Assembly: GCA_900618795.1 (NCBI GenBank)
Contig: UYJD01000010.1
Coordinates: 892,292-956,291, forward strand
DNA length: 64,000 nt
Reading direction: 5' to 3'
Origin: Cyanodermella asteris
Taxonomy: Eukaryota > Ascomycota > Lecanoromycetes > Ostropales > Stictidaceae
A program made the position numbers and the translations under genes. This document shows, one piece after another, positions 8,421-64,000 of this stretch. The notes under the pieces are model-generated. The model was given only the letters and a program-made list of their open reading frames with translations. It had not been told where the DNA came from and ran no database searches. Each line of letters starts with the position of its first letter. The first letter of the stretch is position 1.

Positions 8421-8816
8421 AATGTCCTTGCCACGGTAAGATGAAGCAAAAGTACTTTCCTAGAATGTCGATAAGAATACACCTCATCGGCCGTTTCACA
8501 CATCTGACGAGCACCGTTACATACAGGTCACCTCGATAGATACTTCTGTAGGCACCTGCGGGACTTGAGCCATCGTACCTTCTGAGATACCCAACCAAGT
8601 ACCCACCCGAGCACACGGTTAGGTCACCAAGCAAGTACCCACCCGAGGGCTCAGCCTAGTACCTACCAGATTTTTGATCCATTGCTCACCCGAGTACTGT
8701 TACAGGTCGGCAAGTGAGTCGCTAGTCAAGGTGTTGTGATAAGTCTCTATGCAACGACCATGCTACATACTACCCTTCCAAGGTCTCCTCCTCTCACAGT
8801 CAGCATCACCCCCATC
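8421..8816. other. Convergent intergenic region with short repeats
   Basis: It lies between two convergent genes. It holds a 16-base direct repeat (listed separately) plus weaker relatives of it, and no gene. Confidence 0.6.
8596..8647. repeat. Two copies of a 16-base direct repeat (CAAGTACCCACCCGAG)
   Basis: Exact copies occupy 8596-8611 and 8632-8647, 36 bases apart. Looser versions (AGTACCTACCAG, TCACCCGAGTACT) follow up to about 8700, suggesting a decaying minisatellite. Confidence 0.7.
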
Positions 8817-41127: not shown

Positions 41128-42471
41128 TCAATGCCCACCACGAATTGCTTTCAGCACTCTCGTCACCGGACACTCCCTCACCAGCTTCTTCGCCGCCTCC
41201 TCAGCAGTATCCTCACCTTCCACCCGAGCCCGAGCCCAAGAATCAACAGCAGCATCCAAGTCGGCATTATAGAGCCATGAAAGCTCAATCTCCTCCTTCT
41301 GCAGATCTCCCATCGCCCCCTGCGGCATCCTCCTCAAATCAATCTGCTTGTTCAACTCCAACACCCGATCCACCCTGGCCTGTCGGAATGTCTGCCAAAA
41401 ACTCAGCGCATCCTTCAAGACCGCATTCTTCGCCATCGCACTGCCTTCTTTCTCCGCAGACGCAAGCAAAAGTGCTAGCATATAGACATCCTCAAACGCC
41501 TGATTAATCCCCTGTCCCGCACTCGGCGGAATCGCGTGGGCGGCGTCACCCAGGATGACTACGCGACGCTTCTCACTCGCCCACGACTCCAGCTTCGGCA
41601 CCACATAGAACGGCCACACGTTCATCCTGTCGGTCGGAATCTCCTTCGTCGCATTCCGTACAACCTCCGGAAACGCCTCGTTGTTGGATTGCAAGAAGCG
41701 GACAAGACCTTCTTTGTCGGCGCTGAAGGCTTCCCATTCTGCGCGGCTCAGTTCGTGGTCCATCTTTCGTTGTTTGCCGATGAAGACTTCGGATCCGTCG
41801 GTGTTCTGCGGCGCGATGACGAAGGCACCGGCTTGCGGGTGCATGTACGTGACGACGTGCGGAAATTTCCCGTCTGCGGTGTTGAGCTGGGATGTCGGGA
41901 TGGTGGCGTTTATGCCGGCCATGCCGGTCCATTTCGGCACGAGGTCCGGGTAGAGAAATTTCCGGACCGTAGAATGGATCCCATCAGCGCCGACAAGGAG
42001 ACTCGCACTCACCGTCTCTCCACCCTCAAACTCCCAACTAACACCATCCTTATCCTCAGACAGTACTCGTGCGAACTTCTTCCCATACACGACCTTCACG
42101 CCCGCGTCTCGCAGGGCTTCGAGAAGGGTATCGATCAGCTTGTACCGATACACCCTCAATCCTTGATATCCGTACTTCTCCACGTCCCCGAACTCGTATT
42201 GTTCGGTAACGGAGCCGGTGGTGGCATCTGTCCAATCGAGCAGAGAGAAATTGTAGCCTTGCGATGCGATCTTGTCGTAGAGGCTCAGTTTGTCGAGAAT
42301 GCGCAGCGCGTTGGGGGATAACATGATTGCGCCGCCGATGTTCAGGGGCGCAGAACGGGACTCGTAGATGGTTACGGGGATGCGCTGCTTGGAGAGGGCG
42401 AGGGCGAGGGTCAGTCCGGAGAGGCCAGCGCCGATGATGGCGATGGTGTTGGTCGGGACCGGAGAAGACAT
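41128..42471 (-). CDS. FAD-dependent monooxygenase (salicylate hydroxylase-like)
   Basis: Single exon of 447 residues from MSSPVPTN. Class A flavin monooxygenases hydroxylate aromatic or isoprenoid-derived substrates with NAD(P)H. The FAD-binding GxGxxG motif is at the N-terminus (TIAIIGAGLSGLTLALALSK), the DG motif is LLVGADGIHSTVRKF, and the second FAD motif is VVILGDAAHAIPPSAGQGIN. The frame stays open upstream to an ATG at 42687, but that lies upstream of a TATA box at 42655-42661, so the shorter start is preferred. The substrate cannot be predicted. No clustered biosynthetic genes are adjacent. Confidence 0.9.
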   Translation of the reverse strand: MSSPVPTNTIAIIGAGLSGLTLALALSKQRIPVTIYESRSAPLNIGGAIMLSPNALRILDKLSLYDKIASQGYNFSLLDWTDATTGSVTEQYEFGDVEKYGYQGLRVYRYKLIDTLLEALRDAGVKVVYGKKFARVLSEDKDGVSWEFEGGETVSASLLVGADGIHSTVRKFLYPDLVPKWTGMAGINATIPTSQLNTADGKFPHVVTYMHPQAGAFVIAPQNTDGSEVFIGKQRKMDHELSRAEWEAFSADKEGLVRFLQSNNEAFPEVVRNATKEIPTDRMNVWPFYVVPKLESWASEKRRVVILGDAAHAIPPSAGQGINQAFEDVYMLALLLASAEKEGSAMAKNAVLKDALSFWQTFRQARVDRVLELNKQIDLRRMPQGAMGDLQKEEIELSWLYNADLDAAVDSWARARVEGEDTAEEAAKKLVRECPVTRVLKAIRGGH

Positions 42472-43130
42472 TCTGAGAGCTTCTTTCGATAAGTCTGTGA
42501 TGTATTCACGTTTTGAAGAGATTTGGGGTTGGAGTTTGGATACAAGGGATGAGGTACAGTGTGGTATCAGAGATTCTCTTTTGCTGTGCGGATGGGAGGA
42601 GACTCGAGGAACTCTGCTTGAACAAAAGAGAATGATAGTGGTACTTGGTCTTGTTATATATCCAAGTCTGTTGAGCATCGAGTGCATTTTTCCCTACACC
42701 CACTCAGCTGCTTTACAAATCATTCAACCCGCGAAATTAGCTCACGGCCGTCCACGAGGCCGACCATGATCGATCTGCGATTGCTGCTCATACCGAGATT
42801 TTGAAAACATAAGGAGAAACAAGCCAAGCTTGCATGATTTGCTATCAGAGTCACAAGTGAGGACGGCGCCGAGCTCGCGCGAGCTCCTAAATCGGGTATT
42901 ATGATGAGGATGAGTCGGTCGTATTGTAGCGATGCCGTCGGGCGAGGTTTCGGGCTTCGGATGTTTCGGCCGGAATGTCCGAGCCAACACTTAATCTATA
43001 ACGTGCAGCAAGTTTTTCGAACAGTATTGATTAATTAAAACGAGGTTAGAACCCTACGTAAGGGTTTTGTAGACCCCTAATTACTTAGGGGCGCGCTAAC
43101 CTAAAATAGGCGAGTAATTTACATATAGTA
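42472..43130. other. Promoter and AT-rich, gap-flanking DNA
   Basis: The left part is the monooxygenase promoter. From about 43000 the base composition turns AT-rich with motifs such as TTAATTAA and CTAATTACTTAGG, unlike the genes around it; this may be a decayed transposon edge. Confidence 0.5.
42655..42661 (-). promoter_or_regulatory. TATA box of the monooxygenase gene
   Basis: On the minus strand this reads TATATAA-like sequence (ATATATAAC) about 185 bp before the ATG at 42471. It helps to reject the longer N-terminus. Confidence 0.45.
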
Positions 43131-43567
43131 NNNNNNNNNNNNNNNNNNNNNNNNNNNNNNNNNNNNNNNNNNNNNNNNNNNNNNNNNNNNNNNNNNNNNN
43201 NNNNNNNNNNNNNNNNNNNNNNNNNNNNNNNNNNNNNNNNNNNNNNNNNNNNNNNNNNNNNNNNNNNNNNNNNNNNNNNNNNNNNNNNNNNNNNNNNNNN
43301 NNNNNNNNNNNNNNNNNNNNNNNNNNNNNNNNNNNNNNNNNNNNNNNNNNNNNNNNNNNNNNNNNNNNNNNNNNNNNNNNNNNNNNNNNNNNNNNNNNNN
43401 NNNNNNNNNNNNNNNNNNNNNNNNNNNNNNNNNNNNNNNNNNNNNNNNNNNNNNNNNNNNNNNNNNNNNNNNNNNNNNNNNNNNNNNNNNNNNNNNNNNN
43501 NNNNNNNNNNNNNNNNNNNNNNNNNNNNNNNNNNNNNNNNNNNNNNNNNNNNNNNNNNNNNNNNNNN
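43131..43567. other. Assembly gap (437 N)
   Basis: A run of unknown bases flanked on both sides by AT-rich DNA, which suggests that a repeat collapsed in assembly. Confidence 0.95.
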
Positions 43568-44267
43568 CTACTTTGAAAGCGACGTAATTAGAACGTTATA
43601 GACCTTTTGCTATTTATAAACAGAGCTATATTGGCTTTTATCCTCCAAAGACGGAGGAAACATTGCAGTAGATTACGATATAGTTGACCACGGAAACGGA
43701 AGGACCAGAGCTTTGGTCAGTCTTGGCGAAAACCCGAAGATGAGTTCAAATGCCCACCTAAAGCGGCAGCTCGTGTTTGAACCAGCAGGATTATTATTGG
43801 CGCCATGTGTGGCTTCGAAGCCCGAGCCACAGGTAGAATAAGGGTATGAAGGTGTCTTGAAGTGCCGTCTGAGCGTTCCTCGGCGACGAGCTGCCAACGT
43901 CTAACGTAGTGAATTTAAGCAGATTGAATGGAAAGAGAAGTGCTCTCCCCAGAGTGAGAATTGCGTGGATGCACAATTCGCTTTCAGCAGCTGTCAAGGC
44001 TGCTTGCGCGACGAGTGTCTGAATGTGCGGCGGGCGGCATGATTAGTAGCCACAAGCCGGCGCTCGTTGCAGCCACTTGGCAGCAGCAGACTGTGAGGCA
44101 GAAAGACACTTTGTACGCCCTTCTCCACGATACTGTACCGTGCTGTATACTCTCCCATTGCATTTCGGGCTTCCCTCCAGCAGGACCCTGCGCTCGACTG
44201 TCAGCTTGCTGCCTCTCTCTGGAGACACCGTTTCCTCTTGACCGCTGCCCTCGAGAGCATCGTCGCG
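43568..44267. other. AT-rich gap flank and YIF1 promoter, no gene seen
   Basis: The first 80 or so bases are AT-rich like the left flank of the gap. The rest has overlapping open frames on both strands without motifs and contains the YIF1 promoter. Confidence 0.5.
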
Positions 44268-45938: not shown

Positions 45939-47709
45939 TCACAACTTCGCCGCATCTTTTGCGTTCATGCCGCCATTTCCGGCAACATCAGAGCCAGACG
46001 TGGATCCAGCATCGATGACATCTGTCTCCGTCAAAGGACCAGTGTAATACTTCTTTCCACCACCGGGGATGTACCAGAAAATGGCAGCCGCCAACAGAAT
46101 GAAGACCAAGAACACGCAAGCGTAGTTCATATTGTCTGGAGTGACGGGCATGATCGTCGGCAACAGATAGATGATCGTGGTCCAGAACGTCCAGATGCAA
46201 GCCCACGCGTTGATGAAGTACCCAGCCTTGCCCAAGTGGAACGGACCGGGCTTGTCGAAGCGACCGAAGACGAGCTTGCAGAAGATGGGAATGCAGTAAC
46301 TCCAGTCGAGCGCAATGGCCGTGATGTTGAACACTCCGGAGATGGCGGCGTAGCTTCCGAGACCGATCAGGTTGATCAGGATGCAGCACAGGGTGCTGAG
46401 CCAGACGGCGTACAGGGGTGTTTCGGAGGCCTTGCTGACCTTGAGCCAGACGCGGGACAGCGGGACGAGCCTGTCGCGGGAGAAGGCGAAGAAGGTACGG
46501 GCCAGAGCCTGCAGCGCGGCGAAGCAGAGGAACTTGATGATGATGAAACCACAGGCCGCGAAGCCGATTCCACCTGCGGGACCGAGCGCGTTGTACCAGA
46601 TCTGAACGACGGGCTGTTCCATGGGTGAGCTGAGGATGCCGTCCGCTCCGGCCGGGTCGCTTCCCATGCAGAAACAAAGCACGATTGTGAAGAGCCAGCC
46701 GGCGATGTAGGTAAAGGCCATGGCGAGGGTGATGGCCCAGGGTGCCTTGACTGCTGGGTCGGAGATCTCTTCAGCAATGTGGGCTGTCGCATCGTAATCT
46801 GTCATGGTCCAGGAGACGGACAGGAAACCGAAGAGGAAGGAGAAGCCCAAGGGCTCCCAGCCGGCGGAGCCTTCGATGTTGGTGAAGACATACGAGGGGC
46901 TGTTCTTGTTCGGGGTCACGACAAGGAGGGCGATGCAGCAGGCTACCAAGACCATCACGTGGAAAATCACATATCCTGACAATCGAGTTAGCACAAATTT
47001 GCAAGCGGTGATATGTGCTTAGCTCACCCTTGGTGATCTTCTCAAGCCACTTGGTCGAAAGCGAGTTTACGAGACCGGTCAGAACCGTCGAAGCAGCCAT
47101 CACTCCCACAGTGTGTCCGACATTGGGAATATAATTGAACGCTGCCAGATCGGCATTGTATCCCGAGCCCATGGAAACGGCGGCAAGCAGCATTTGAGCA
47201 CCACCATATTCAGACGAGGCAACACCGGCGACTTGACCGAGAAGGTTCAGCCATCCGGTGACCCAAGAGACCGACGGAACCCATGCGGGCGGAGCGAGGT
47301 AGGAGACGGTGTAGTACAAGCCGCCGGAGGTCGGGAAGGCGCTGACGAGTTCGGAGACGGAGACGGCGATGCACATGCAACCAGCACCGGAGATCAGCCA
47401 ACACCAGACGGCACTTGCGGAGCCGCCGGCTTCGAGAGGGTAGATGAAGGTTGTCGTGACAGTGGAGAAGACACCGCTAATGCTGACGGCGAAGGAGAAG
47501 GCGGAAAGCCAGCCGAACTCGCGCTTGAAGACGGGCTTGTAGCCGTACCTCTCGGCGAGCTCTCTGTCCGCTTCGGATAGCTCATCAAGCTGAATGGTAT
47601 GCCGGCGGCCATTGTTGTCTTGCACTTCGACAGCGCCAACACTGTTGCGCCTACGCATCTTATCGGCGTCGAGCACGCCGCTCTGCGTGGTGTGGGCGAC
47701 TTCAGCCAT
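45939..47709 (-). CDS. Amino acid/choline/GABA-type permease (APC family)
   Basis: Two exons, 47028-47709 and 45939-46975 with a 52 bp intron, give 572 residues. Around twelve membrane segments follow a hydrophilic N-terminus. The first membrane region (SAFSFAVSISGVFSTVTTTF, YPLEAGGSASAVWCWLISGA) and the loop DYDATAHIAEEISDPAVKAP are typical of fungal permeases of the Uga4/Hnm1 group, which carry GABA, choline or related amines with protons across the plasma membrane. Substrate choice cannot be told from sequence. The join AAG-G|GA-TAT restores a continuous membrane helix (KGYVIFHVMVLVACCIALLV). Confidence 0.93.
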
Positions 47710-50700
47710 GCTTACAGGCTAAGTATGTGATGGAGAGATGGACGTATGATTGTTCCGCTGCGGCGAGCTATTCACCTCCACTTGCGCAGACGATGAATCC
47801 GCTTGTCTGCGGAATAGTAGCAGATGCAGAGACTAAGTTCGTGGATAGGCTGCATGTGCTGCTGATGACCTAAAAGATAAGAAGGTAGCACCTTGCCACA
47901 GGAGACTGTGATAACTGGCGGCAGGATGCCTAAAACGAGCAGCGAACGATAGATAAGAAAAGAGGGGAGAGAAGGCACGGCAGCGCCGGCGAAGAAGAAG
48001 AAGAAGAAGAAGGCCGCCAACGATTTTCTGACGGCAAGACTCTGAGTCGCAGTCTATCCTCCGATGGGGTGCCAACGGCTCGAGCGGCGGCGACCTTGGC
48101 GGAGGGGACGCTTAGTGCCCCAGCAGTATACTCTACGTGCACTACTGTCCATGGCAGCAATCCAGGGTTTCTCGGCGTGTGCTTTCTCGCAGTCCTGGTT
48201 GATGGCACAGCTTTTTTTTCTGGCGTGGAGCCGGCGGTCATACCCATGGTATCGACCCAGCCTGGATGTCGGGGATTTTATCGTGTCGTGCTTGCAGGAT
48301 AATTTGCTCAAAGCTTGCTATGGTTCGCCGGTATGCTGATTGGTAGATAAAGGGTGGTCATACTGCTTACGAACAGGTTGCTCGCGTGGCTGGCACGGCA
48401 TGGAAAAGGCCCAGCTCGACGCCTGAGAGCGCCATCACTCCGAACAGGAACACCAAAAGAGCGCTTCTTTGCTGGCTGTAGAGTGTAGACGGGCACGCGA
48501 CACCGTCAGCTCTTACTTGCCGCAGATGTTGGTTCGTCGCATGGCTGCAGAATCCGTCCGGCGATACTTGCCACGCGCATCTAAACTTCGAAACGAAGGA
48601 ACGTGCTTCTAGAATGAAGTCATGCCCCCACAGCAATCTCAGCCCAAGTGGACCATCTTGCAGCCTCAGGTTTTTTTTTCTTCAACGGCGCTTGCTCTGA
48701 GCGCTGCCAAGCAGGAATAATGGTGGTCATACACTGTTGTGTGAAAATTCTATGCGCTGTTCGCCGCCGCAAAGCGGGCGACAAATTTGTTTTTGGCGGA
48801 TGCAGATGCGGAGAGGCAGTTCGGCCCCGCCCATTACCGAAAGCCTCGAATTCAAGCAGTGCCAGCGCGATGCTCTCGACGATGCCGTTTGTAGAATGTC
48901 TATCCGCAGCTTGCAGTTGCCTTTCAAGCCGCGGATCTGACTTGCAAGACGCCGCAAACGTACTCGGCAGATACATTGTGTTCAAAAGCAGCTTCGCCAA
49001 TTTGCGGATCAAAGATCCTGCTTGGCTCGGAAGGTCTCCGGCAGATACTGGGACGAAGAACACTGAACGCCGTCGGGTACGAGAAGGAACAACATGACTC
49101 CTGCCAGGAGAGAAAGTAGAGCAAACGAACAAGAGCTTTGATTTCACCTGTAGAATCCCCACTTGATGATAGGTCAAACTTGTATTCGTCTCAAGGGTCG
49201 AAGGAGTTTGACGACCCTTGGTCTCCACATGGAGGGAGCCAGGAATTTTGACGATCCATTTGAAACCGTCTGTCGGAAGCGACCATGGCCATCCTTCTGC
49301 ACTTTCCTGGAAGAAGCAAGGGAATTGTGCCGATTTGGGCTGCTAACTTGGTGAGAGCAATAAATCGTGACACGCGCGGGCAGAGCCGCATCCGATGGGT
49401 CTGGAACTTCTGTCGTCACTCAGCGAAGATGCGCCAGAAGTTACACCGTCAGTACCAGCGGAAGGTAACCGAAGGGGCCCACGGTTCGCGCAGTGTTTGA
49501 GCAAATGCGATTTTCAATATCCTTTGGTGAAGCTTGACAGCTTGCGACCTCCACTGGACTCGCCTTGACGGCCACTGGCCTTGCAGCCTTAGCCGAGGTG
49601 CACGCAGCGCTTGGAGGAATTTCTGTCCAAGGTCTCACGTATACATTGCAACGGCAAGGCGACCAAAAGGATTGGTAAGATATACAACGAAGAGTCTGTC
49701 ACGAGCGCCCGCGCATCCCAGCGGGGTAGGACGCACTGTGGATGATTGCATTGTTCCTCGGGAACGCAAGAGTCTACTTGGCATGTTTGATATTCCAAAG
49801 TATCTCTGTTCATGTGGGTGTCTGTCTCATCTCGCGATGCAGTGATATAGCACATTTGTTAGCACAATGCCAGGGCCTGTGAAGGCCGAAAATCGGAGTT
49901 GGCGACGGATAATGATAAGAGATAGCAGTCATTGAATGTCGAGCACTAGCGAATCGTCGAATATGATAGAGGCAGGCTCGCCCTGATCCAGTGGGGGCGA
50001 TCGACCATTCATATTACCGGAAGTTGCCAGTCTTATCGATGCGTTACGCATTCCACGAGATTGAGCACAACCTGTACTGGCACCGGCGCCGACATCGAAC
50101 CCAGACTGACGTGGCAGTCCTCAAACGAGATAGCTCAAACACAATGCTTCGATCTCGCAGTTCACGACATCAAATGTCGTCGCGATGTCGGAGCACCGCA
50201 TCTGAATTGGCTGTAGCACTATCTGGCAGATCGGGTGCTTGCCGATTTCGAGGTCGTCGGGGATTGCAGCTGCTTTGGTAACCGGCACTCTGATCCAGGC
50301 TTATGCTTCAGCGATGGGACTCGCTGTGGATACGTTGCTTTGGAAAGCAGGTTGTCTGTGGAAACTAAGTGAGCTCGTATACTGACAGTATTCGAGGCAA
50401 GATTTCCGCCATTGCTTATCAACCTCTCTCCGTACATCGCGCGCTTAAGGACAGCCGAGCTTTGACTGACCGGCATGCTCAGAAACCTTTACCTTAAAGC
50501 GCCTCAACGGCCGGGCAAGACGCATGGTTACAGAAAGACGCGCTGCGGCTGAAACATCCGCGACGAATGCTCGAGTTGGATGACTTTGTTGTCTGTTGCA
50601 AAGCGTGCGCCGACCCGGCCATCGCAGAGCTCGTTCTTTCATGTCCTTGGAATCCGATCGTAAGTCGGGACGAAGTTGAAGCGACTTTTACAACAGAAAC

Positions 50701-52269: not shown

Positions 52270-54531
52270 TCACTTGACCTTACCCAAGACTGTTTCTGCT
52301 CCCCGCCCGTCGCCGCCCTCTGTGACCTTCTGCCGAACAGCATTCATCATGGCTCGCTCATAATCATCTCGGGCTCTCAAGACAGCCTCAACCCAGCTGA
52401 CTTGGACATCGCCAAATTCACGACGCAGGTCAGCGAAAGCGTTCCCAACAGAGGTCTTGTCAACTTCGAGTAGTCTGACCATGTGATGCACTGCCTTCCA
52501 TTTACCTCTGACCTCGGAAAAGTCGACCTGATCAGGGAATTTCTCGAAGAATCCGAAAGCCGTACGAACATCGTCGCCGATCTTGTCCGGGAATGGATCT
52601 TGTCGCTTGAACTTCGCTCCTTTGTTTCTCACGGCTGACATGTAGCGCACCAGGAGAGTCTCGCCAATCTGTTCCAGCAACATGTCGAGGAGCGATGGGT
52701 GGAGAAGCTCGGTATAGTCGCTCACGTAGTCATCAAAAGTGCTAGTGATGCGCTTCAAGGCGTATTCACCGTACCATTTCTGTGTAAACAGCTCGCCCAT
52801 AGTTGACTTGAAGTCGACGTTGAACATCAAATCCACAAAGGCGTTAATGCAGGTGGCTCCCAAGTCAATATAGCCATCGCGGAGCGCATCGATCGCCGGC
52901 TCAGCAGTAGCAGAGAGGAAGCCGGGTGGGCAAATTGGTCGCACCTCAGCAGCAAAACTCGTGAGATGACCTTGCACGCCCATGGCTTCATTGTCGTCAA
53001 TGCAAGAGATAGCATCATTAGCCATTGCGACAAGATAATCTTGAAGGGCCTGTAAATCCGAGGTCTCGGCGTTAGGCTTGTTGTAACGTTCAACTTCTGC
53101 TGCGATGATCTGGGACCAAGTCGATTGACGTTTCTTGAGAGCACGGAACATAGCTTCTAGGACGCCCTCGACAATCTCGGGGCGACCACTACCAGCAGCG
53201 ACACTGAGTTGCTCACGCAGCATGCGCCACATGTCTGGGAGAGTCTTCGTACGGAAATAGCCATTGGCGTCCTTCTCGAGTGCATCCTCGCTGCGTGCAT
53301 TGAACGCGTCCCGGTCATTGTTGAACATGCGGTCCATCCATTGGTCGACAGCATTGACGATGTTCTGGCGCCAGTTACGGATGAGGTCTTGCTCGCGATC
53401 GTCAAGCACATCGGGCAAGAGATCACTTGGCTCAAAATTGCCGAGAGCTTTCATCTTTTCATAGTACTTTGTCCGCCAATGGATAATCGAAAGTAGATGA
53501 CCTTGCGTGGTCCGATCGTCCTCGATCAGCTTTGTCAAGAAGTCGTGCATCTTCTGATGGTAGATGTCCGTATATGTCTTGAAAATCTTCCACTTTCTTG
53601 GCATGAGTTCAACCATGCCGATTTTGACCGCGTTGAGGTCATTGAAATACCACTTGAGACTTTTCTCCAATTTGCTGGGCTCCTCCAAGAACTTCTCTTC
53701 AGTGTTGGCAAACCCGACCGTGGGTTTCATGCCAATTGCCTCCACAAACTTATCCTTGTAGCCACGTAGCTCTTTGGGACCTCCTTTTATTGACTTGAAT
53801 CTGGATGCCAGCTCCTTGTGTTCTTTTTGCGCCTCCTGCATCGCCTTGACCTTCAGATCGTTTTTCTCTTCCTGCTCAATGATAAGTGCCATGCGCACGA
53901 TACTGCTCTTCCTGCCGTCCAGGAGCAAACGGATCAGATTTGCGCAGATGTGTCCGATGTTCGCATCGAAGAGGTCTACCACGTCATCGAGTCTGTTAAA
54001 GTAGTCGAGCAACTGGTTCTCGAAGGATTGATCCGAAGACTGCCTAATCTCGGATATGGCTTCGTCTCTGAAATCACGTAGCTGAGTGAGCTCGTAGTGG
54101 ATTTCCAGCAGGCGTGGCTGTTCGTCCAGGTCGCGCTCGTCCTCTTGCAAAAGATCCTCTATATGGTCAATTCTTTGGTTGAAGCTCTCTAAGCTATCTT
54201 TCATGGCTTGCACTTGCTGGAAGTTCCTGTGAATCTGTGAGACGATGTTGATGTTCGGAAAGTCTTTGATCATATCCTGCGACTCGGCGCACAGTCGGTC
54301 GATGTTCATCATCTCCTCCTTGATTTGCGCAACAATGCGCTGACTGTCGCTGATGGAGGTCATGCCAGACTGCGTGATCTCGAGCTGCTCCTTGAGACCT
54401 GCTCGGAGCTGGCCATCGACGGCGGCTTTCTTCCGCTGGAAATCCGCTTTCAAGGCGGTCAACTTCTCAAGGTCTTCCGGATGCCGAAGCAATTCCGCCA
54501 GCTTGGCCGTTGAAGCCTCCAAATCCGCCAT
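52270..54531 (-). CDS. SEC6: Exocyst complex subunit Sec6
   Basis: Single exon of 753 residues from MADLEASTAKLAELLRHPED; an in-frame extension to 54720 adds 63 poorly conserved residues and is not favoured. The N-terminal coiled coil (SGMTSISDSQRIVAQIKEEM) leads into the helical-rod Sec6 fold (YFNDLNAVKIGMVELMPRKW, YHQKMHDFLTKLIEDDRTTQ, FVDLMFNVDFKSTMGELFTQ). The length matches fungal Sec6 (about 750-800). It is a core subunit of the octameric exocyst that tethers secretory vesicles at growing tips and septa. Confidence 0.95.
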   Translation of the reverse strand: MADLEASTAKLAELLRHPEDLEKLTALKADFQRKKAAVDGQLRAGLKEQLEITQSGMTSISDSQRIVAQIKEEMMNIDRLCAESQDMIKDFPNINIVSQIHRNFQQVQAMKDSLESFNQRIDHIEDLLQEDERDLDEQPRLLEIHYELTQLRDFRDEAISEIRQSSDQSFENQLLDYFNRLDDVVDLFDANIGHICANLIRLLLDGRKSSIVRMALIIEQEEKNDLKVKAMQEAQKEHKELASRFKSIKGGPKELRGYKDKFVEAIGMKPTVGFANTEEKFLEEPSKLEKSLKWYFNDLNAVKIGMVELMPRKWKIFKTYTDIYHQKMHDFLTKLIEDDRTTQGHLLSIIHWRTKYYEKMKALGNFEPSDLLPDVLDDREQDLIRNWRQNIVNAVDQWMDRMFNNDRDAFNARSEDALEKDANGYFRTKTLPDMWRMLREQLSVAAGSGRPEIVEGVLEAMFRALKKRQSTWSQIIAAEVERYNKPNAETSDLQALQDYLVAMANDAISCIDDNEAMGVQGHLTSFAAEVRPICPPGFLSATAEPAIDALRDGYIDLGATCINAFVDLMFNVDFKSTMGELFTQKWYGEYALKRITSTFDDYVSDYTELLHPSLLDMLLEQIGETLLVRYMSAVRNKGAKFKRQDPFPDKIGDDVRTAFGFFEKFPDQVDFSEVRGKWKAVHHMVRLLEVDKTSVGNAFADLRREFGDVQVSWVEAVLRARDDYERAMMNAVRQKVTEGGDGRGAETVLGKVK

Positions 54532-54778
54532 GGTCGCGTTGCGGACTGTCTCACCACAGTCTGCTATGCGATGATGTGGTCGTGGAGGCGTTCTGTAAAG
54601 CAAAGCGACCGCGAGAGTGCCCGCAGCACGGGCCACTGAAGAGTCCAGCACGGGCCACTCTGAAGAACGCGAAGAACACTCGCTCACGCCTGCGACGCCG
54701 TCAAGGACAAGCACACGCAATATCTACCACTGTTTACTTTGTTATGGGTTCTCGAGTATCTGCTCTAGAACCTCGCGT

Positions 54779-55395
54779 CTACCTCGCGTGCCCACCTCGG
54801 TCATAGAATGAGCTGACAGGAAAGGTGTCGAAGAATGCTTCTTGCTCATCGACTGTCACGAAGCTCTCTTGCAAATGACGAAGGTACCACATTCTCAGTT
54901 TCTCCAGACTGTCATCATCCATCGCACTTTCAATGTCCATCGGATAACCACAGTCGAGCATAGCAGTCTCTGAAGCACGAACATAGCTTCCTTCCTTGGG
55001 TCTCCAGCCGTTGGCTGCCCACAGCGTTTGATCGAAGCGAAGCCCAGAGATAGGTTCTTGCACGTCGTTTTCTGCAAGCAACGTGAACAGTTCATCTTTA
55101 CACGATGGCTTGCCACCCCTCTGCCTGCGCTGGTGTACACAGTGAATCCAATCAGCCCGCCATCTGGGATGCCTGTAATCACGTACGGTCTTTCCTTCAC
55201 ACCTACTGAACCGACCCTACTTGGAATAGCAATGTTGCGATCGTCACTCCCAGCCTTGGGATTGAAATTGGGGGTAACAAACGGTGCCTACCTTATTCCT
55301 CCATGTCGGTAATCGGTGGATCGAGTTTTCGATCGAGCGTTGCGGCGCATGGGAGGGTTGTCAGCGACCGAACCGACCAGAAGGGACGGATCCAT
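54779..55395 (-). CDS. Hypothetical two-exon protein, 175 residues
   Basis: The proposed exons, 55292-55395 and 54779-55202 (89 bp intron, GTAGGC...CAGTAG), keep the frame. Exon 1 begins MDPSLLVGSVADNPP. Exon 2 has a C-terminus that looks protein-like: TLWAANGWRPKEGSYVRASE, LRMWYLRHLQESFVTVDEQE and TFPVSSFYDRGGHAR. An overlapping frame (54895-55200) also reads sensibly (RPYVITGIPDGGLIGF), so the locus may be frameshifted or use another intron. No family was recognised. The C-terminal exon is more secure than the N-terminal one. It is divergent from the decayed region to its right. Confidence 0.4.
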
Positions 55396-55539
55396 TCCCT
55401 TCAAGACCACCAAAGGCGATGCGAAAGGTTCCGAGCAGCGACGTAATACCGTATCTGTTGAGGACGGTGCACGCCTGGCGTCTAGACTTTGGTTTTGGGC
55501 AACGGTAAACCGCGCAACGCAGTCGAAACACGTGCTTGG

Positions 55540-55975
55540 TACTCATGATGTTATGCTTGGGGTTGGGTACCTTATACGACTTGCGTTGTCGAACCTGTTG
55601 TCTTGGAATAACGTGACATGGCCAGTCCCGGTGTCAAAAGTTGACGAACCTTGAATGGAGGTACAAAAAGCTAGTTTATGCACACGTAAGTGTTTCGATT
55701 TTGCAAAATCCATACACACGGCGCATGCCACAACACCGTTAGCTGGCCAGATGGCTTCTTATGGGATCTTCCTTGTCACGAATCTAGCCTGCCTGAACCC
55801 AATAATGAACTTGAGAACGGTGGCAGTCTAGTGTTTTTGAGAGGCAAGCCACGTATCTTTGAGATAATTGTCTCATACAAGCGGTCACTCCCTTACTTCT
55901 TTGTACATCTCGTCGGACGAGGTGTTTCAACTGCGGAGTTTTGGGCTTTGCTTTGTTTGACGACAAACGGCCACC
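55540..55975 (-). pseudogene. Decayed copy of the 61217-62008 gene (copy B, minus member)
   Basis: In one minus-strand frame the translation follows the intact protein but with several stops: NTSSDEMYKEV matches NTNASMYKLGQV, LKFIIGFRQARFVT matches QIIIGIFQDAGLVT, GVVACAVCMDFAKSKHLRV matches GVLSVPYAKRHECMHVV, and GHVTLFQD matches PGVTLRSAD. At least four in-frame stops interrupt it. It lies just left of, and divergent from, the broken plus-strand member at 56083, repeating the arrangement of the intact pair. Confidence 0.55.
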
Positions 55976-56082
55976 GACCGATGCCTTGTGGCGCCAATGA
56001 TCAGGTTGGCGGCCATGGACTGTTGTTCTCAACGCAGGATCGGAGCTTGTTTCGTTCACGATCATTCCTGTGAAACCTAACG

Positions 56083-56530
56083 ATGAGCCGGACTCGCACT
56101 GTACATCAGCATATCTCACGACAATCCTGGAGTCGTTCACCCCGCCGCACAACCGTCGCTACTTCGAGTCTTCAATTTCATGACTCCTCCGAGACGAGAA
56201 ATGGATTGTCTTCAGAGTATAATGAAACAGCGGCGGAGCTGCTTCCAAGTGATAGCACACAGAAAGTCGGAAGGTTCAAAAGTCTGCATAAACAGCTCCT
56301 GCAAGCTGGAGAATATTCCGAGGAGCATGTTGAACCCGCAACCGAAGTAGCTGAAAGCCTGCGGAACTCTCTTCGAAGGGTCAGAGAGCGCTTGAAATTC
56401 AATAGCCGCTTCGGAGGCCCGAGGGACGTTTACAATGAGCTAGGCCGGAGAATGGATAACCTCAGCCACTGTCTTTAATCCATGGATCGTGATCACGAAG
56501 CTCAAGCCGCCAATATACATGCTTCGAGGC
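56083..56530 (+). pseudogene. Truncated copy of the 62485 gene (copy B, plus member)
   Basis: An ATG at 56083 opens a 131-residue frame ending at TAA 56476-56478. Its end, FGGPRDVYNELGRRMDNLSH-CL, aligns with FEGPTETFNEFGQRLEDLQH-CL of the intact protein, and SLHKQLLQAGEYSEEHVEP aligns with the segment before it. After the stop the same frame continues with MDRDHE, matching IDRDFE of the intact copy, so the stop is a late nonsense change rather than a natural end. A short expressed protein remains possible. Confidence 0.6.
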
Positions 56531-56540
56531 GACTTGCGTA

Positions 56541-57369
56541 ACCAAGGGCTGCGGGCTGGCATTCCGGTACGTATGTATAGGATGCGGCCGGGTAAATACG
56601 CTCGGGCCGGATAAAGAGGAGGCGACCTCGGTCGCAGCGGTGGAATGTTCGACGAAGCTGTCACGCGACGCACGGCCCACTTTCCCCCCACAATCTCCCC
56701 ACCGACGTTTTCTGGGGCCCGGGGAAGGTGCGACGGTAAGCGGAACACACAATGGCGAAGTTTAAGTATTAGCCTTCAACGGCCAACGCCTCCCCCCGCC
56801 ACCTCCGACAGCCCCAGATCGACAATGTCTGGCCACTTAGCGTTGCTTCACTCGATGCATCGCTTTGAGCAGAGATTTTGTGTCTGTAAAGTCCAGATAT
56901 GCGACTCCAGCTGCCCTGGTCGCGCGCTACGCTCGCCCTGACTCGCGTGCGTTTAGGCGGATCCTGCATTGCTGCGGCGTTGGTGCGGCCGAAACAGGGA
57001 AAGCATCCGGCACGGGCTGGCGGTGGGGACTTTGCCTTTGTATTGGACTGTACATACTCTCAGCTATCTTTGCATGGCCAGTGGATGCGATTCATTCCCC
57101 TGCCGTCGTGACTCTCGCGGGGAAGAGTCGCAAGCCACGTGGGTCCGACTCCCGATCCGTCGCTCTGGCACTGGTGTTACATTAACCGGTCTTTGAACTA
57201 CTTCATAATCCACAAGTACCTCTTTTCTGCTTCTCGTCTCGCGTCCCTGCCATCCCTCCCATACCTCTACTTGTCCATCGAGGTAGCCAAGGACAATTTC
57301 GCCTTGCAGCCCTCCCAAACCACCACAAGTTGTCTACTCGTTGGCTCGACGTAGACGCCGTTGCCCAAC
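56541..57369. other. Promoter region of the MFS transporter, no gene seen
   Basis: Upstream DNA with C-rich and CT-rich runs close to the start. No coding signal. Confidence 0.55.
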
Positions 57370-59196
57370 ATGAATCGCAACAGCGACCCCGAGTCCAAGG
57401 GGCACATCCACCATGCCGAAGAGATCGATCACACCGCTGTCTTCAGCGAGAAGTCGGCGGTCGCTGACTACAAGGCCGATGCTATGGAGGCGGAGACAGT
57501 CGAACACAACATGACTGTGCCTCAGGCCGTCAAGGCCTACCCAATGGCCTCCTTCTGGGCGTTTGTCATCTCTTGCACGATTGTAAGTTATCCCCCCGCC
57601 GTGTCCGCAGCGAGTGACATGCAGCTGACAGACCCAGATCATGGAATCTTACGATGTCTTCCTTATGGGCAATTTCCTCGCCCTTCCTGCCTTCTACAAC
57701 AGATACGGCGTGTACGATGCCGCCTCGGACAAGTTTGTCGTCGAAACCCGGTGGCAGTCAACAATGCAGGTGTCTGGCCAGCTTGGTGCGCTCATTGGTG
57801 TCTTCCTGGCTGGTCCTCTTACCACCCGTGTTGGCTACCGATGGGCTACCATGATCGGCCTTATGTCACTGAACGTCTTCATCTTCGCTTTCTACTTTGG
57901 CGACTCACTGCCCGTCTTCTTCGTGGCACAGCTATTGGAAGGTCTCCCGTGGGGTATCTTCATCGCCAATGCACCTGCTTACTGTTCGGAAATCGTTCCC
58001 ATCCAGCTCCGTGCACCGGCAACACAGATGCTGCAGATGTTCTGGGCCATTGGCAGTATCATCGTGGGCGCAGTCACCTACGTATACAACGGTGTGCCCG
58101 ATGCAAGTGCTTACAGGTATGGATGAACATTTCTGTCGCAAAATTCTCGCTAATCAACGTTGAAAGAGTCCCCATCGCCCTGCAATGGATGTTCCCCACT
58201 CCGCTCATGATTCTCGTCTTCTTCGCCCCAGAGAGCCCCTGGTGGCTCGTGCGGAAGGGTCGCCTCGAGGAGGCTGCAAAGGCAGTCGTACGTCTCGGTC
58301 GCAAGTCTAGAATATCGGATCCATCCGACACCGTTGCTATGATGCGCCGTACAATCGAGTTGGAAAAGAGCCAGAAGAAGCCCTCTCACATCGAATTGTT
58401 CAAGGGCACAGATCTTCGACGAACCCTCATCGTGTGTGGTGTATATTTGGCTCAGAACCTTACTGGTAATCTGATTGCCAATCAGGCCGTCTATTTCTTC
58501 ACTCGTAAGTTGCAGCTGACCTTGGAACTTGTACAGGTCACTAATGAACTTTACAGAGGCCGGCGTTGGTACCAACACTGCTTTCGCTCTTGGACTTATC
58601 ACCTCCGCTCTTCAGATGATCTTCGTCATGCTTTCCTGGATCCTGACCACTTACTTCGGCCGACGATCCATCTATCTGTGGGGTTCGGCAGCGAACACGA
58701 TCCTCCTCATCGCACTCGGTGTCGCAGGCTCGGTTGGCTACTCCACAGCATCGCAATACGCGCAGGCCTCCCTTGGGTTGATTGTCTCCGTACTCTTCAC
58801 CTTGGGCCCTGCCCCCGCCTCCTGGGTCATCATCGGTGAAACATCGGCCATCCGCCTTCGACCTCTCACCACCGGTATGGGACGTGCGACATACTACATT
58901 ATCGAGATTCCTTGCATTTTCCTCGCATCATACATGCTCAATCCCCTTGGAGGCAATCGTAAGTTATACTTCCTTCCGTACTCTACGTGTGCTGTGACAT
59001 GGCTAACACAATCGCAGTTGCTGGCAAGTGTGGTTACGTTTGGGGTGCGACAGGTCTGCTCTGCTTGATAGTCGCCTACTTCGAGCTTCCCGAGATGAAG
59101 GGCCGTTCGTACCGTGAGATCGATATCATGTTCAAGCGCAAGATTCCGGCTCGCAAGTGGAAGTCGACGCAAATCGATCTCAACGAGGACGAGTAG
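57370..59196 (+). CDS. MFS sugar transporter, alpha-glucoside (maltose) permease type
   Basis: Five exons, 57370-57582, 57638-58116, 58167-58504, 58557-58958 and 59018-59196, with introns of 50-59 bp, give 536 residues. Twelve membrane segments are predicted. Sugar-porter features are the loop-2 region GPLTTRVGYRWATMIGL, PWGIFIANAPAYCSEIVPIQ, PESPWWLVRKGRLEEAAKAV, the helix-7 region ANQAVYFFTQAG, and ELPEMKGRSYREIDIMFKRK at the end. MFAPESPWW-type and E-L-F-K-G-T-D-L-R-R-T sequence (here HIELFKGTDLRRTLIV) is usual in fungal Mal31/Agt1 relatives, which import maltose and other alpha-glucosides with protons. No alpha-glucosidase or Mal regulator gene lies nearby in the window. Confidence 0.94.
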
Positions 59197-59777
59197 ACGT
59201 CCGCCGCGAGGGCTTTAATGGACGCTTATGTATACTTGTACTAACATGCCTTTCTTGTTGGATAGACTGGCGTGCGGCAATCAGGATAGTCATATAGCGA
59301 ACAGTCAAGAACATCTTCAGGGTCGATGTCCTGCTTACAGGCTCCTCAATCTTCAAACAGAATTCCCCACTTACTTCTCAGTGACTTTGCTCTGTGCTCG
59401 CTCGCATCCCAAATCGCCGATGCACGAATGTAGATTATCAGCCGCAGCCACGTCAACCCTCGGCTTCGAGCCAGTTTATTATTCTCGTGGTGGTGATCCT
59501 GGGTATCCGGGAAGCTTCTACTTGCCGCATGGCGGGGCAAAGTTCGACCGTGCCATCCATCCGCGCGCGGGACAAAGAAACCTCCATCTTTGCATCGCTT
59601 CCGCAGCCTTACCTATGTAAGTGCCACCAATAATGTTCCATCTGTCCAGGCCTTCGGCCACCCCTGTCTCGCGTGGCGGTCAGATCGGACGTTATACTTC
59701 TTTAGGTTAACCGTAGATCTGCGATTGGTTAGTCTTGTTTCCATGTTCTCTGTCGGGTTAGTGTTGAGTACCCCTTC
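59197..59777. other. Intergenic region, no gene seen
   Basis: Spacer between the transporter and a pseudogene; open frames on both strands have no motif. Confidence 0.55.
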
Positions 59778-60290
59778 TCAGTGTAATTGTCTGTGCCACT
59801 TCTGAAGTCGCTTACAGCTTTCCTCCTCGATGCCGCTCTTACACCGCGCGATGGGGTAAGCGTACGATAGAAGAATGCAGTCGGTAGCACGAATGTGTGA
59901 GCCAGAAATCGGCGCCCAAGCTTCCGTCGTGCGCCAGCGCTTCTCCAAAGCGCATCCCATCCCGTCAACCGGTGGCTCGGCCGCCCTCGGGTGCAAGACA
60001 TGGAAGAGTCCGTCCTTTTCTTGTATGATACTCCCTCGCCTCCGTTTGAGAAGATGGGGATGGCCAGCAGCCCAGATTCCAGGATCCTGATCACGATGTC
60101 TGGTCTCTCTTTCGCGCATACGGCTCCGAATTTGTGAGAGCAGCGCAATCTCCGGGTCGTCGCTCATGCTACTTGGGTTGGGATTCGTCGCTACGTGCGG
60201 CGGACAAATTTACCTCGCCGTGCCGATGGTCGTCGGCTCGCGTTTTTATCCTTGTTCGTCGGGTGGTCGATTCGTACTGACTGATGGAGC
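59778..60290 (-). pseudogene. Frameshifted copy of the 61217-62008 gene (copy C)
   Basis: Homology to the intact protein jumps between two frames. Frame one has PPHVATNPNPSSMSDDPEIA (intact: APYVIPNSDPNAVNTDESIA), preceded by an in-frame TAA at 60210-60212. A second frame has AKERPDIVIRILESGLLAIP then IFSNGGEGVSYKKR (intact: AKSRPQIIIGIFQDAGLVTI then PIFSSTSRG). Frame one returns with AWAPISGSHI and EESCKRLQKWHRQ (intact: DWMPTVGSHV and QTSVRRLQTLHDL). Two frameshifts and a stop make this a pseudogene unless they are assembly errors. Confidence 0.7.
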
Positions 60291-60342
60291 ATATGTTGAA
60301 AGCGGAGCATTGTCGCCAGGGAATTTTGCACTGCGGCTCTGA

Positions 60343-60681
60343 TCATCAACTCCTGAGATCGAGGATTTGCTCCACCAGAATGCATATGAGAAGGTTAACC
60401 CTTGGCGAGTCGAGGCAGACTTTGGCGTCTCGCCGGAGCGAGCATCACATTATGCTTCATCCACGTCGTCCCATCCGTCAGGCTGCAGGCCTGGCAAAGA
60501 TCTGGCCGGACCTGCGATTACGGACAGCGTCAGCTATATGATTCGTCACGGGATCAAGCAGGGCTTTGGCTACTCAGTCTATCGAAATGAAATTGACAGC
60601 TTCGAAGTCTTGAGGGAAGAGATGAGGAGTACTCTTCCCAAAGAAGCTAGGCTAGCTCAGAAGAGCGAGACTACAGGCTGA
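60343..60681 (+). other. Protein-like open frame without ATG, possible gene remnant
   Basis: A frame open for 112 codons after a TGA reads PEIEDLLHQNAYEKVNPWRV, EADFGVSPERASHYAS, MIRHGIKQGFGYSVYRNEID and FEVLREEMRSTLPKEARLAQ before a TGA. The first in-frame ATG is more than half way along. The composition looks coding. It may be an exon of an unrecognised gene or the relic of a gene partner to the copy C pseudogene. No similarity to the 62485 protein could be seen by eye. Confidence 0.35.
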
Positions 60682-61216
60682 TCTAAGATTGACGATGAAA
60701 TGACGATCGTCCCTACGCAATACTGCATTCTGAACCAAATCTTTACGGTTTTACCATCGTGAAATCGTAGTATTTTCCTTCGCCTCCATGATGTACAAGA
60801 TGCTCGCCGTCAGGTTCGAGTGAACATTGAAGCTGGAGAACCGCAATCCAAATACATAGCGCATTTTCCTTTATGACACCGCCTTTGGCCCATTTTCTAC
60901 ACCACGACTTCGTAGCCCGCGAAATTTTGTTGCTGAAACGCATATGCTGCAAGCCAAATCTAACATAAGAATAGGTGACAGAGCTTATATTTCCTCCTTA
61001 CCGAAATTGCGGAAGAAGGACTGAATTGTTTGGTCATCACCGCAACCACTTCCAAAAATCAGGTATAGCAATTTTCAATCTGAAGTTCATCAAGTTATAT
61101 ATTTCAACTTCCGTGAAATGAAAAGCTGGCATGATCAACAAACCAGCAACGGCGATGACAAAATCATGTACCTACCTGACTTACCTACTTATTTGACTAT
61201 CCCAGGTACTGATACC
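60682..61216. other. AT-rich intergenic region, no gene seen
   Basis: Comparatively AT-rich spacer; it should contain the 3' end of the minus-strand gene to its right. Confidence 0.5.
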
Positions 61217-62008
61217 TTAATGGAAGCGTTCTTTGATATAAGCAAGCTGATCCCTGACCGGTCTGTAGCTTGCCGCCAGATACAAATCATGCAAGGTTTG
61301 GAGCCTTCGCACGCTGGTCTGATCGATGGCACCGACGATCTTGATCGGGCATTCGTACTTGAGCCGATAGGACAGCGAAGCATAAACATGAGAGCCCACG
61401 GTCGGCATCCAGTCGTTGTCGTCTGCCGATCGAAGTGTTACACCAGGTCGATCCAGCGGGGCAAGGCTCTCTTCTCTAACGGACCTTGTCACGACGTGCA
61501 TGCATTCGTGGCGCTTGGCATACGGAACGCTCAACACTCCCCTGCTCGTTGAAGAGAAGATGGGAATGGTGACGAGTCCCGCATCTTGGAAGATGCCGAT
61601 GATGATCTGGGGTCGCGACTTGGCGGAGATGGGCCCGACGATGGCCGACATGGCTATGCTCTCGTCAGTGTTCACAGCGTTCGGATCGCTGTTCGGTATC
61701 ACGTATGGAGCCGTCACAACCTGACCCAATTTGTACATTGAAGCGTTCGTGTTGACGCGAGCTGTCAGGTTCTTCCTCCCGAGCGCAAAGTCTGTGACAG
61801 AGCCAACTGGGAGCTCTTCGAAGCGGCTTGCGTGAATGGAGTCAAGAACGTTCTCTCTCTTCACAAAGGCACTGGGGCCTCGTGTTATTCGCTGAGAGGG
61901 CATTGTTTGCTTCGTCTGGAAATCGCGAGGATTGCTGGTAGGATGCCCGTGGCCCAGCCTCGCATTGCTGTTGTGCCCAGCCTGTGGATATCCTCTTGGG
62001 TATGACAT
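61217..62008 (-). CDS. Unrecognised protein, intact minus member of a duplicated divergent pair
   Basis: Single exon of 263 residues from MSYPRGYPQAGHNSNARLGH; the longer frame has only a TTG start. The N-terminus is polar and disordered. A folded part begins near residue 60 (NVLDSIHASRFEELPVGSVT) and includes SRPQIIIGIFQDAGLVTIPI, AKRHECMHVVTRSVREESLA, DNDWMPTVGSHVYASLSYRL and PIKIVGAIDQTSVRRLQTLH. It has no signal peptide, membrane segment or known domain. Repeated beta-like stretches (IIIGIF, LVTIPIF, KIVGAI) suggest a compact alpha/beta or beta fold. It is divergent from the gene at 62485 with a 476 bp shared promoter, and two decayed relatives lie within 7 kb. Confidence 0.7.
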   Translation of the reverse strand: MSYPRGYPQAGHNSNARLGHGHPTSNPRDFQTKQTMPSQRITRGPSAFVKRENVLDSIHASRFEELPVGSVTDFALGRKNLTARVNTNASMYKLGQVVTAPYVIPNSDPNAVNTDESIAMSAIVGPISAKSRPQIIIGIFQDAGLVTIPIFSSTSRGVLSVPYAKRHECMHVVTRSVREESLAPLDRPGVTLRSADDNDWMPTVGSHVYASLSYRLKYECPIKIVGAIDQTSVRRLQTLHDLYLAASYRPVRDQLAYIKERFH

Positions 62009-62484
62009 GATTCTCCGGTCTATCAAAGACGGGACTTTCAAAGTAGATTGGTACCTGCTGAATGTCAAGGATGAGGCTCGGTTGCGATGTAAGAGCGTCG
62101 GGAAAGAGAGTGAGTGAATCCAAAGCCGGAAGAGCCAGAAGTCTGGCGGTGCAGCGTTTATTAGCAATTCAACCAGCAGGCTACCTCAAAGGGATGAGGG
62201 AGCACAATATATCAGTGTGGTGTATGATCGGCTTTGTTCGGTAGATTTGCTTTGAGTAGATGGTGTGTATTCAGCTTTGTTCTAACCTGGCTACTATCGT
62301 TTTTGCTGTGGAGGCGTGATCAAAGGGGCTTTGTTTGACTTGGATTCCTGTCGCCGGCATGGTTAAAAGAGCACGTCAGGCCCCATCTGTGTTTTCACCG
62401 CGCACTCTCTCGGTCGTTGACATCTCTACAAATTGAAAACAACGAGTAGATCTCGCAACTACACACAACTCATCGACTATAAAC
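62009..62484. other. Shared promoter of the intact divergent pair
   Basis: A 476 bp head-to-head spacer. The sequence near the plus-strand start (CACAACTCATCGACTATAAAC) is typical fungal leader. No regulatory motif was recognised. Confidence 0.5.
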
Positions 62485-64000
62485 ATGTCCGTTCAAGACT
62501 CACGAATCACCGACCCGGCAGGAGACAGGAGACGCCGCCCGTCAGCTCTTGTCAATGCTCTTTCAGGAAACAGGTTTCTTAATCGAGGAATCGAAGCAGG
62601 CACTTTGGCCTTCAACTTCATGCAGCAATGTCTGCTCCCACGCACCGAACGCTCGTTCAGAAGACGACATGGAGCTACTGCGTTTCCGCAAGTGCCTGAA
62701 GCTATACTGGAAAAGCTTGCAACATACAAAACAGTCCAGAACCGGTATAAAGATGTTACCGAATGGGCATGTCAAAAGGCTGAGCCTAGCGAAGAACAGG
62801 TGGCCCGCATCACAGCGGCTATCGAGCGTGTGCAAGCTCGCATGCGATGGATTAGTACTTTCGAAGGGCCGACTGAAACCTTCAATGAGTTTGGTCAAAG
62901 GCTGGAAGATCTGCAGCATTGTCTTGACACCATCGATCGAGATTTCGAGTTGGACAATGAATGCCTCCAGGGACTGGCATCTGATATGCAACAGGAAGGG
63001 GAAGAGCTGATTGTGATGATCGAGGATTGGCTAAGAAGCACCTTTGGTGTATCAAGGGAAGTTGAACGTGACGAAACTCCTGCCTACTGCCCAGTCTTCG
63101 ATCTAGCGATCATCGACAGTGCGGAGGCAGCTTGTGACCAGAAGGAAGTCGCTGACGCGCAAGAGGAAGCCGAGCTCCGCCAGCTGCCATTCCAACCAGA
63201 TGACATGATCATGAGCCGAACATGGATAGTTCGGGAAACCAAATCCCGAATTCGCGAATCGCGTTCGGAAATTCGAAGAGCTCGTGAAAACCTTGAAGAG
63301 CTGCTGAAGAAGCGCGCGGCACAGGACCTGGGATGCGCTCAAGGCGATGATAAGATGAGCTCAACTCACACAGATGCTGGCCCAACAGGTGCTGATGTCA
63401 ACTCACAATATCCAGAGGACAGTTCTTTCAACGCTGAACCAAGCTCATACGATGACAGGGGCAATGCCTGTGAGACTGATACCTTCTCGGATGACCGAGG
63501 ATCTGGACGACGGTATGATGTGGATGCCGATGAGTTCGATTCTGGACCCGATTATTATGAAGATAATTTGTCTTATGGTCGTGCGCAAAGCCCAGAGATG
63601 AGCCTTGGAGAAGCTATCAGAGCTGAAGAGCAAGCCATTGAGGCATCAACGAATGAGCTGAACTTTAGCATCAAGGCGGGACGCGAGCTTGGCCTGGACG
63701 TGACGGATAGCGGATCTATAATCTTCACAGGGCCACCCCCTCGGCCGTCATCAAGATGCAGCGAGGACATGATACTTTGGGGCGCACACCAAGCGGACAA
63801 CGACCACGAGATGATCGATGAAGAAATTGCTGAGAAGCACATGAAAGTTGCTGCTATGTGTCAGCCTTGGGCTGAGGACATCGATGTTGCGATGTCGCCC
63901 AGCGAGCTTGGCCCTCCTTCACTCTCGCTCCCTTCGACTCCAACAGCTGATGAGGTCGTCCTGATCGAGGCGCAGATCTCCGATGTCACGGACATAGGGG
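62485..64000 (+). CDS. Unrecognised coiled-coil protein, intact plus member of the divergent pair (3' end outside window)
   Basis: The frame from the ATG at 62485 is open to the last base, 505 codons with no intron. It begins MSVQDSRITDPAGDRRRRPS. Helical, charged segments follow: KTVQNRYKDVTEWACQKAEP, RITAAIERVQARMRWISTFE, FNEFGQRLEDLQHCLDTIDR and SRIRESRSEIRRARENLEEL, consistent with coiled coils. The second half is acidic, Ser/Asp-rich and probably disordered, with one more helix (MSLGEAIRAEEQAIEASTNE). No catalytic domain, signal peptide or membrane segment is visible. A truncated relative is at 56083. Structural or scaffold roles are possible but not shown. Confidence 0.75.
   Translation, partial: MSVQDSRITDPAGDRRRRPSALVNALSGNRFLNRGIEAGTLAFNFMQQCLLPRTERSFRRRHGATAFPQVPEAILEKLATYKTVQNRYKDVTEWACQKAEPSEEQVARITAAIERVQARMRWISTFEGPTETFNEFGQRLEDLQHCLDTIDRDFELDNECLQGLASDMQQEGEELIVMIEDWLRSTFGVSREVERDETPAYCPVFDLAIIDSAEAACDQKEVADAQEEAELRQLPFQPDDMIMSRTWIVRETKSRIRESRSEIRRARENLEELLKKRAAQDLGCAQGDDKMSSTHTDAGPTGADVNSQYPEDSSFNAEPSSYDDRGNACETDTFSDDRGSGRRYDVDADEFDSGPDYYEDNLSYGRAQSPEMSLGEAIRAEEQAIEASTNELNFSIKAGRELGLDVTDSGSIIFTGPPPRPSSRCSEDMILWGAHQADNDHEMIDEEIAEKHMKVAAMCQPWAEDIDVAMSPSELGPPSLSLPSTPTADEVVLIEAQISDVTDIG

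Follow-up and report, generated by a model that had tools for sequence, protein, structure and literature searches.

Two divergently oriented, unrecognised genes lie at the right-hand end of a 64,000-nucleotide stretch of fungal DNA (hereafter, the window), and they raise the question of whether they were copied locally as a unit and whether the two proteins they encode act together. The window lies on one contig (C9) of a 28.5 Mb genome comprising 25 contigs. It contains a Sec6 exocyst gene (52270-54531, minus strand; Pfam E 1.9e-150) and, recognised by eye, a sugar-transporter-like gene with apparent introns at approximately 57370-59197. Together with the general gene style, these two genes suggest a filamentous ascomycete-like fungus.

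The divergent pair at 61217-64000, here termed pair C, is genuine. Open reading frames (ORFs) at 61217-62008 on the minus strand and from 62485 to the window end on the plus strand reproduced the coordinates and the 476 bp gap of the original prediction. The plus-strand ORF contained 0 stops in its own frame, whereas each of the remaining five frames had between 10 and 40. Situated on opposite strands and separated by less than 1 kb between start codons, the two constitute a divergent gene pair. We refer to their families as minus-type and plus-type, after the strands of the pair C genes, and label the related pairs A, B and D (Table 1). The pair C proteins carry opposite charges; in pair D, however, the plus-type protein is close to neutral, and we therefore give charge little weight.

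Table 1 Members of the minus-type and plus-type families and their positions (window coordinates, unless the segment L010 is named)
Feature	Position	Strand	Description
Pair A minus-type relic	54833-55383	-	Frame-tolerant alignment: 66/184 identical, 1 frameshift, 1 stop
Pair A plus-type relic	56083-56499	+	ORF start 56083; query residues 43-155 at 56171-56499; 35/110 identical, 1 frameshift, 1 stop
Pair B minus-type relic	59793-60252	-	Frame-tolerant alignment: 56/150 identical, 3 frameshifts
Pair B plus-type C-terminal remnant (tentative)	60343-60678	+	Directly right of the pair B minus-type relic
Pair C minus-type gene	61217-62008	-	Single uninterrupted ORF, 263 aa, pI 9.7 (basic)
Pair C divergent intergenic region	62009-62484		476 bp between start codons
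Pair C plus-type gene	62485-64000	+	At least 505 aa, no stop before window end, pI 4.4 (acidic)
Pair D plus-type ORF	L010 (C9:964501-974400), 2884-4689	-	601 aa, resembles the pair C plus-type protein
Pair D minus-type gene	L010, first part from 5302 on	opposite to the 601-aa ORF	Head to head with the 601-aa ORF, 612 bp away

To the left of pair C, tblastn of its two proteins against the window revealed decayed relatives of both. The minus-type protein matched at 55386-54907 (65.1 bits; pair A) and at 60209-59793 (39.3 bits, E 4e-6; pair B), and the plus-type protein at 56227-56499 (65.5 bits, E 1e-13; pair A), compared with a best score of 30.0 bits (minus) and 32.7 bits (plus) among 500 shuffled queries. 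Frame-tolerant alignments scored 173 for the pair B minus-type relic and 155 for the pair A plus-type relic, against at most 45 for eight shuffled queries each. The plus-type copy proposed at 56083-56530 and the minus-type relative proposed at 59778-60290 were thereby recovered, the latter aligning over 60252-59793. A further minus-type relic had been placed at 55540-55975. This position was wrong: the minus-type protein reached no better than E 0.28 against 55500-56082, and the true site lies at 54833-55383. Despite the corrected coordinate, the predicted left-minus/right-plus order holds for pair A.

All three relics are frameshifted, in keeping with the decay that had been suspected, and the pair A plus-type relic corresponds to the N-terminal part only. 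The protein-level alignments of the 55-56 kb and 60 kb segments, well above those of shuffled queries, demonstrate that copies A and C and the minus half of B are homologous, and establish their order, orientation and decay. At the nucleotide level, similarity between the copies is nearly unrecognisable. A blastn comparison of 54501-64000 with the window (E ≤ 0.1) returned the segment itself and one 28-bp self-inverted match, with no match between copies, and a repeat finder reported one 37-nt stretch, 70% identical, linking the pair B minus-type relic to the intact pair C minus-type gene.

A candidate fourth pair, pair D, is found about 11 kb beyond the right end of the window, in mirror orientation relative to pairs A to C and still head to head. 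BLASTP of the pair C plus-type protein against the 601-aa protein aligned residues 114-245 (30.4 bits, E 2e-4 in this one comparison) and, in a second collinear piece, residues 343-472 (E 0.038), single-comparison values that take no account of the choice of this ORF by eye (L010 1700-6000 has three ORFs of 120 aa or more, two of which were compared with proteins of the window). None of 1000 shuffles did as well, and a tblastn search of the window plus four loci (about 104 kb) gave E 0.012. The first part of the minus-type partner, likewise read by eye from the DNA, matched minus-type residues 92-143 (0/2000 shuffles as good) and the second part, in another frame, residues 150-173 (16/2000); joined as two collinear pieces, they gave a tblastn E of 1.9e-4. 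The reading frame of the gene shifts between L010 5574 and 5582, a distance that leaves no room for an intron; the shift may reflect damage to this copy or an error in the assembly.

We scanned the window in 1-kb pieces with each pair D sequence. The first minus-type part scored highest at the intact minus-type gene (68), followed by the pair A relic (55), with no score above 49 anywhere else. Its second part was less specific (44 at the minus-type gene versus 45 at two unrelated places), and the 601-aa protein scored 80 at the plus-type gene versus 71 at an unrelated place. Compared directly with the pair A plus-type relic, the 601-aa protein was equalled by 15/500 shuffles. Because both partners match independently, side by side and in the correct mutual orientation, these comparisons indicate that the L010 pair is very probably a fourth divergent pair of both families. 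Further along the same segment, at L010 7641-7736 (minus strand), a weak match (E 0.39), interrupted by one stop, to minus-type residues 145-176 is perhaps a fifth relic, or else a chance similarity.

Does pair B, too, retain a plus-type half? The readable pair C plus-type protein, aligned to the DNA directly right of the pair B minus-type relic, was matched by 52/400 shuffles. Against the same DNA, the last 101 residues of the 601-aa protein outscored all shuffles (0/2000 as good), and the whole protein was equalled by 7/2000; an equal score also arose at a single site elsewhere in the window, and tblastn gave E 0.29. When 1314 stop-to-stop ORFs (minimum length, 30 aa) were searched with a profile built from the C termini of the two proteins (plus-type and 601-aa), the ORF at 60343-60678 came second to the plus-type gene itself (E 0.079; next, 1.7). 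With a full-length plus-type profile, the ORF reached E 1.3, behind two unrelated ORFs. Since it sits at the expected place and on the expected strand, we consider this ORF probably to be a plus-type C-terminal remnant of pair B.

Local duplication of the pair is, in our judgement, highly probable. The claim that the two genes had been copied as a unit finds its support in pair A and, with the tentative members included, extends to what are probably four divergent pairs (A, B, C and D) within about 24 kb. Genome-wide, all matches with E ≤ 1e-3 to the proteins of pair C fell within this cluster, and the pair D proteins yielded no match outside it at that threshold. The 601-aa protein retrieved only itself; the first part of the pair D minus-type gene retrieved the pair C minus-type gene at E 0.31, and the second part missed it. 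These searches were insensitive: at its default cut-off the minus-type search missed the copies in pairs B and D, and the plus-type search did not list the 601-aa gene. The absence of solo copies from the genome is therefore weakly supported. A mobile element, or its remains, carrying two divergent genes would account for several decayed copies lying close together. We regard it as very improbable, given the lack of matches elsewhere in the genome at E ≤ 1e-3, of long boundary repeats in 54500-64000 and of any domain typical of mobile elements in what can be read of the pair C proteins.

What kind of proteins does the pair encode? A search of a 5.8-billion protein set, which requires common five-residue words, returned no homologue at E ≤ 1e-3 for either the plus-type protein (7993 candidates sharing most words scored) or the minus-type protein (485 candidates). 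Against PDB sequences, the former gave one match at E 1.4 and the latter none up to E 10; NCBIfam gave nothing above cut-off. The original statement that neither protein resembles a known family was nearly right: no family exceeded its cut-off, but the minus-type protein spans the Pfam profile DUF6590 (PF20233; function unknown) below threshold. Its residues 91-237 aligned to positions 3-151 of the 152 in the profile, scoring 14.8 bits (E 0.029) for the whole protein and 16.2 bits (E 0.011) for the domain part, yet short of the curated gathering score of 27 bits.

One could accordingly regard the minus-type gene as simply a diverged DUF6590 gene beside an unrelated orphan coiled-coil gene, a reading compatible with the others. 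The nearly complete profile coverage speaks for it, as does the presence of a true DUF6590 gene in this genome, the only one over cut-off in a genome search (contig C15; spliced domain, E 7e-17). Against it stand the sub-threshold bit scores and three unsupportive comparisons with true members: hhalign of the minus-type protein with two of them (probability 0.1%, 22 columns), a two-domain profile of true DUF6590 sequences (2000 shuffles made, 1184 of them reported and 655 of these as good) and a rough profile combining every minus-type piece, which performed at shuffle level (94/200). Searches with the relics of the minus-type gene and with its pair D relative yielded no Pfam family. We consider this reading somewhat unlikely. 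The minus-type protein itself is possibly a very divergent DUF6590 domain, a similarity kept as a lead with no family assigned. A literature search by the names DUF6590 and PF20233 found no paper, and an AlphaFold2 model of the protein, built without relatives, had a mean pLDDT of 33.4.

The canonical DUF6590 gene, unlike the minus-type gene of pair C, adjoins a HET-domain (heterokaryon incompatibility) gene. Within its segment (L012, G000:C15:2830000-2839900), the DUF6590 match lies at 5914-6529 on the minus strand, and the HET match falls in an ORF at 8179-9789 on the plus strand (E 1.7e-28), placing the two head to head, with both 5' ends guessed. In the protein set, the C15 gene recovered one fungal DUF6590 protein among 335 candidates, its sole listed database relative (P0001; Emmonsiellopsis sp., 441 aa), implying that the set includes some fungal proteins. 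The 203 residues ahead of the DUF6590 domain in P0001 match no Pfam family. BLASTP of the minus-type protein against P0001 reached at best E 1.1; the notion of P0001 as a fused relative was not supported, the plus-type protein matching it at best E 0.16.

The Pfam matches of the plus-type protein were all sub-threshold, with TBCA at E 0.083 and, for the N-terminal part, DUF7109, ABC_tran_CTD, SesA, GST_N_4 and Dynamin_N; the 601-aa protein had one such match (DUF5959, E 0.055). SesA (PF17107), a domain of fungal NLR-type proteins, covered residues 106-156 at E 0.092 (13.3 bits versus a cut-off of 26.3). We rejected this lead, as a profile built from the three SesA domains of this genome detected no signal in the protein (2000 shuffles made, 1619 of them reported and 244 of these as good). 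An AlphaFold2 model built without relatives was mainly helical, at low confidence (mean pLDDT 45.6). The three SesA domains that exceed the Pfam cut-off lie at L013, L014 and L015 (contigs C14, C11 and C24), implying that NLR-type recognition genes may be present elsewhere in this genome.

What maintains the arrangement? The most likely reading, which we hold with moderate confidence, is a lineage-restricted two-gene module that has been duplicated as a unit and is decaying. Such a module would consist of a small basic minus-type protein and a larger helical plus-type protein (acidic in pair C), encoded head to head across an intergenic region of 0.5-0.6 kb. Local duplication of the unit would have produced three copies facing one way (A, B and C) and a mirrored one (D), joint duplication of each pair being the simplest account. 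The copies would then have diverged and decayed by birth and death, leaving pair C, with both readable frames open, and the distant pair D, with an open plus-type frame. A bidirectional promoter may serve both genes, and the two products would cooperate, probably as a single complex of a helical scaffold and a small bound partner, with a joint role in some rapidly evolving process, for example recognition or stress defence.

How far the arrangement speaks for joint action depends on what duplication alone would produce. In its favour, the two genes of a pair appear to remain divergently arranged even though protein identity has fallen to about 25-31% and one copy is inverted; it is for this reason that we entertain joint action at all. 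Weakening it, tandem duplication hands on the arrangement for free, and the intergenic regions lack convincing common sequence. On balance, we see joint action of the two proteins as a tentative proposal. The original suggestion, that conservation of the arrangement points to proteins acting together or co-regulated, may be right but does not follow from the arrangement: tandem duplication preserves it without selection, and no convincing excess of intergenic words emerged. Common 8-, 9- and 10-mers between the intergenic regions of C and D were as numerous in 44, 68 and 80 of 500 shuffles, and those between C and A in 171, 86 and 36 of 500; D and A had fewer common short words than expected. 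Sequence comparison thus pointed to no convincing conserved element among the readable intergenic regions. A sigma-type promoter scan was set aside as not meaningful in a fungus.

Passive tandem duplication of unrelated neighbours that happened to share one segment, with dispensable copies and functionally unlinked products, is a serious contender, though we stop short of calling it probable. It would explain the confinement of the copies to about 24 kb, the broken members of pairs A and B, the frame change in D, and the lack of both a convincing conserved intergenic sequence and a motif common to the partners. It sits less easily with a pair that apparently remains together at such low identity and in an inverted copy, and with the failure to see a solo copy, bearing in mind the insensitivity of the own-genome search. 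The lineage-restricted module, which we continue to favour, would represent two unrelated families kept paired through repeated duplication, deep divergence and inversion. Many fungal genes are unclassified and offer no functional handle; here, the head-to-head pairing provides a concrete and testable hypothesis of joint function. Finding the pairing in further fungi would establish a new two-component system; its absence there would make the locus a clear case of pairs duplicated neutrally and then decaying.

We compared the locus with known two-gene arrangements. In fungal nonself-recognition units such as nwd2/het-S of Podospora, a receptor gene lies next to an effector gene, and the two have an amyloid motif in common (PMC5485727). 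The likeness lies in two adjacent genes of a filamentous fungus with proposed joint action. Unlike in nwd2/het-S, no NACHT, HeLo or HET domain was found in the readable part of the pair C proteins (the plus-type C-terminus falls outside the window). Nor did the partners share a motif: the minus-type and readable plus-type proteins, the latter lacking its 3' end, aligned with a score of 25, which 500/500 shuffles equalled. Lacking both a common motif and a receptor or effector domain in its readable proteins, the pair was not filed with the nonself-recognition pairs. That it might nevertheless be an undescribed ascomycete recognition or self-defence module, in which a helical scaffold and a small basic protein depend on joint inheritance and expression and which multiplies and decays at a single locus in the manner of known nonself-recognition loci, strikes us as improbable.

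Divergent genes less than 1000 bp apart are treated as likely promoter sharers in a description of bidirectional-promoter pairs (PMC2871058). By start codons, pair C (476 bp) and pair D (612 bp) both fall below this distance, the latter likewise forming a divergent gene pair with less than 1 kb between its members. Unlike those pairs, the present pair has been amplified locally, and it has no convincing conserved intergenic sequence.

Arrays of several paralogous divergent gene pairs are a feature of the HD1/HD2 mating-type loci of basidiomycetes. The present locus resembles these loci in holding several paralogous divergent pairs and differs in that the readable pair C proteins gave no homeodomain match. 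Elsewhere in the window, two 2-kb intervals stood out by composition. The interval 42001-44000 has a low GC content (0.387 versus approximately 0.53 around it) and includes a 437-base run of N at 43131-43567, which may itself lower the figure, and the interval 46001-48000 shows a strong AT skew of 0.178 along with a GC skew of 0.120.
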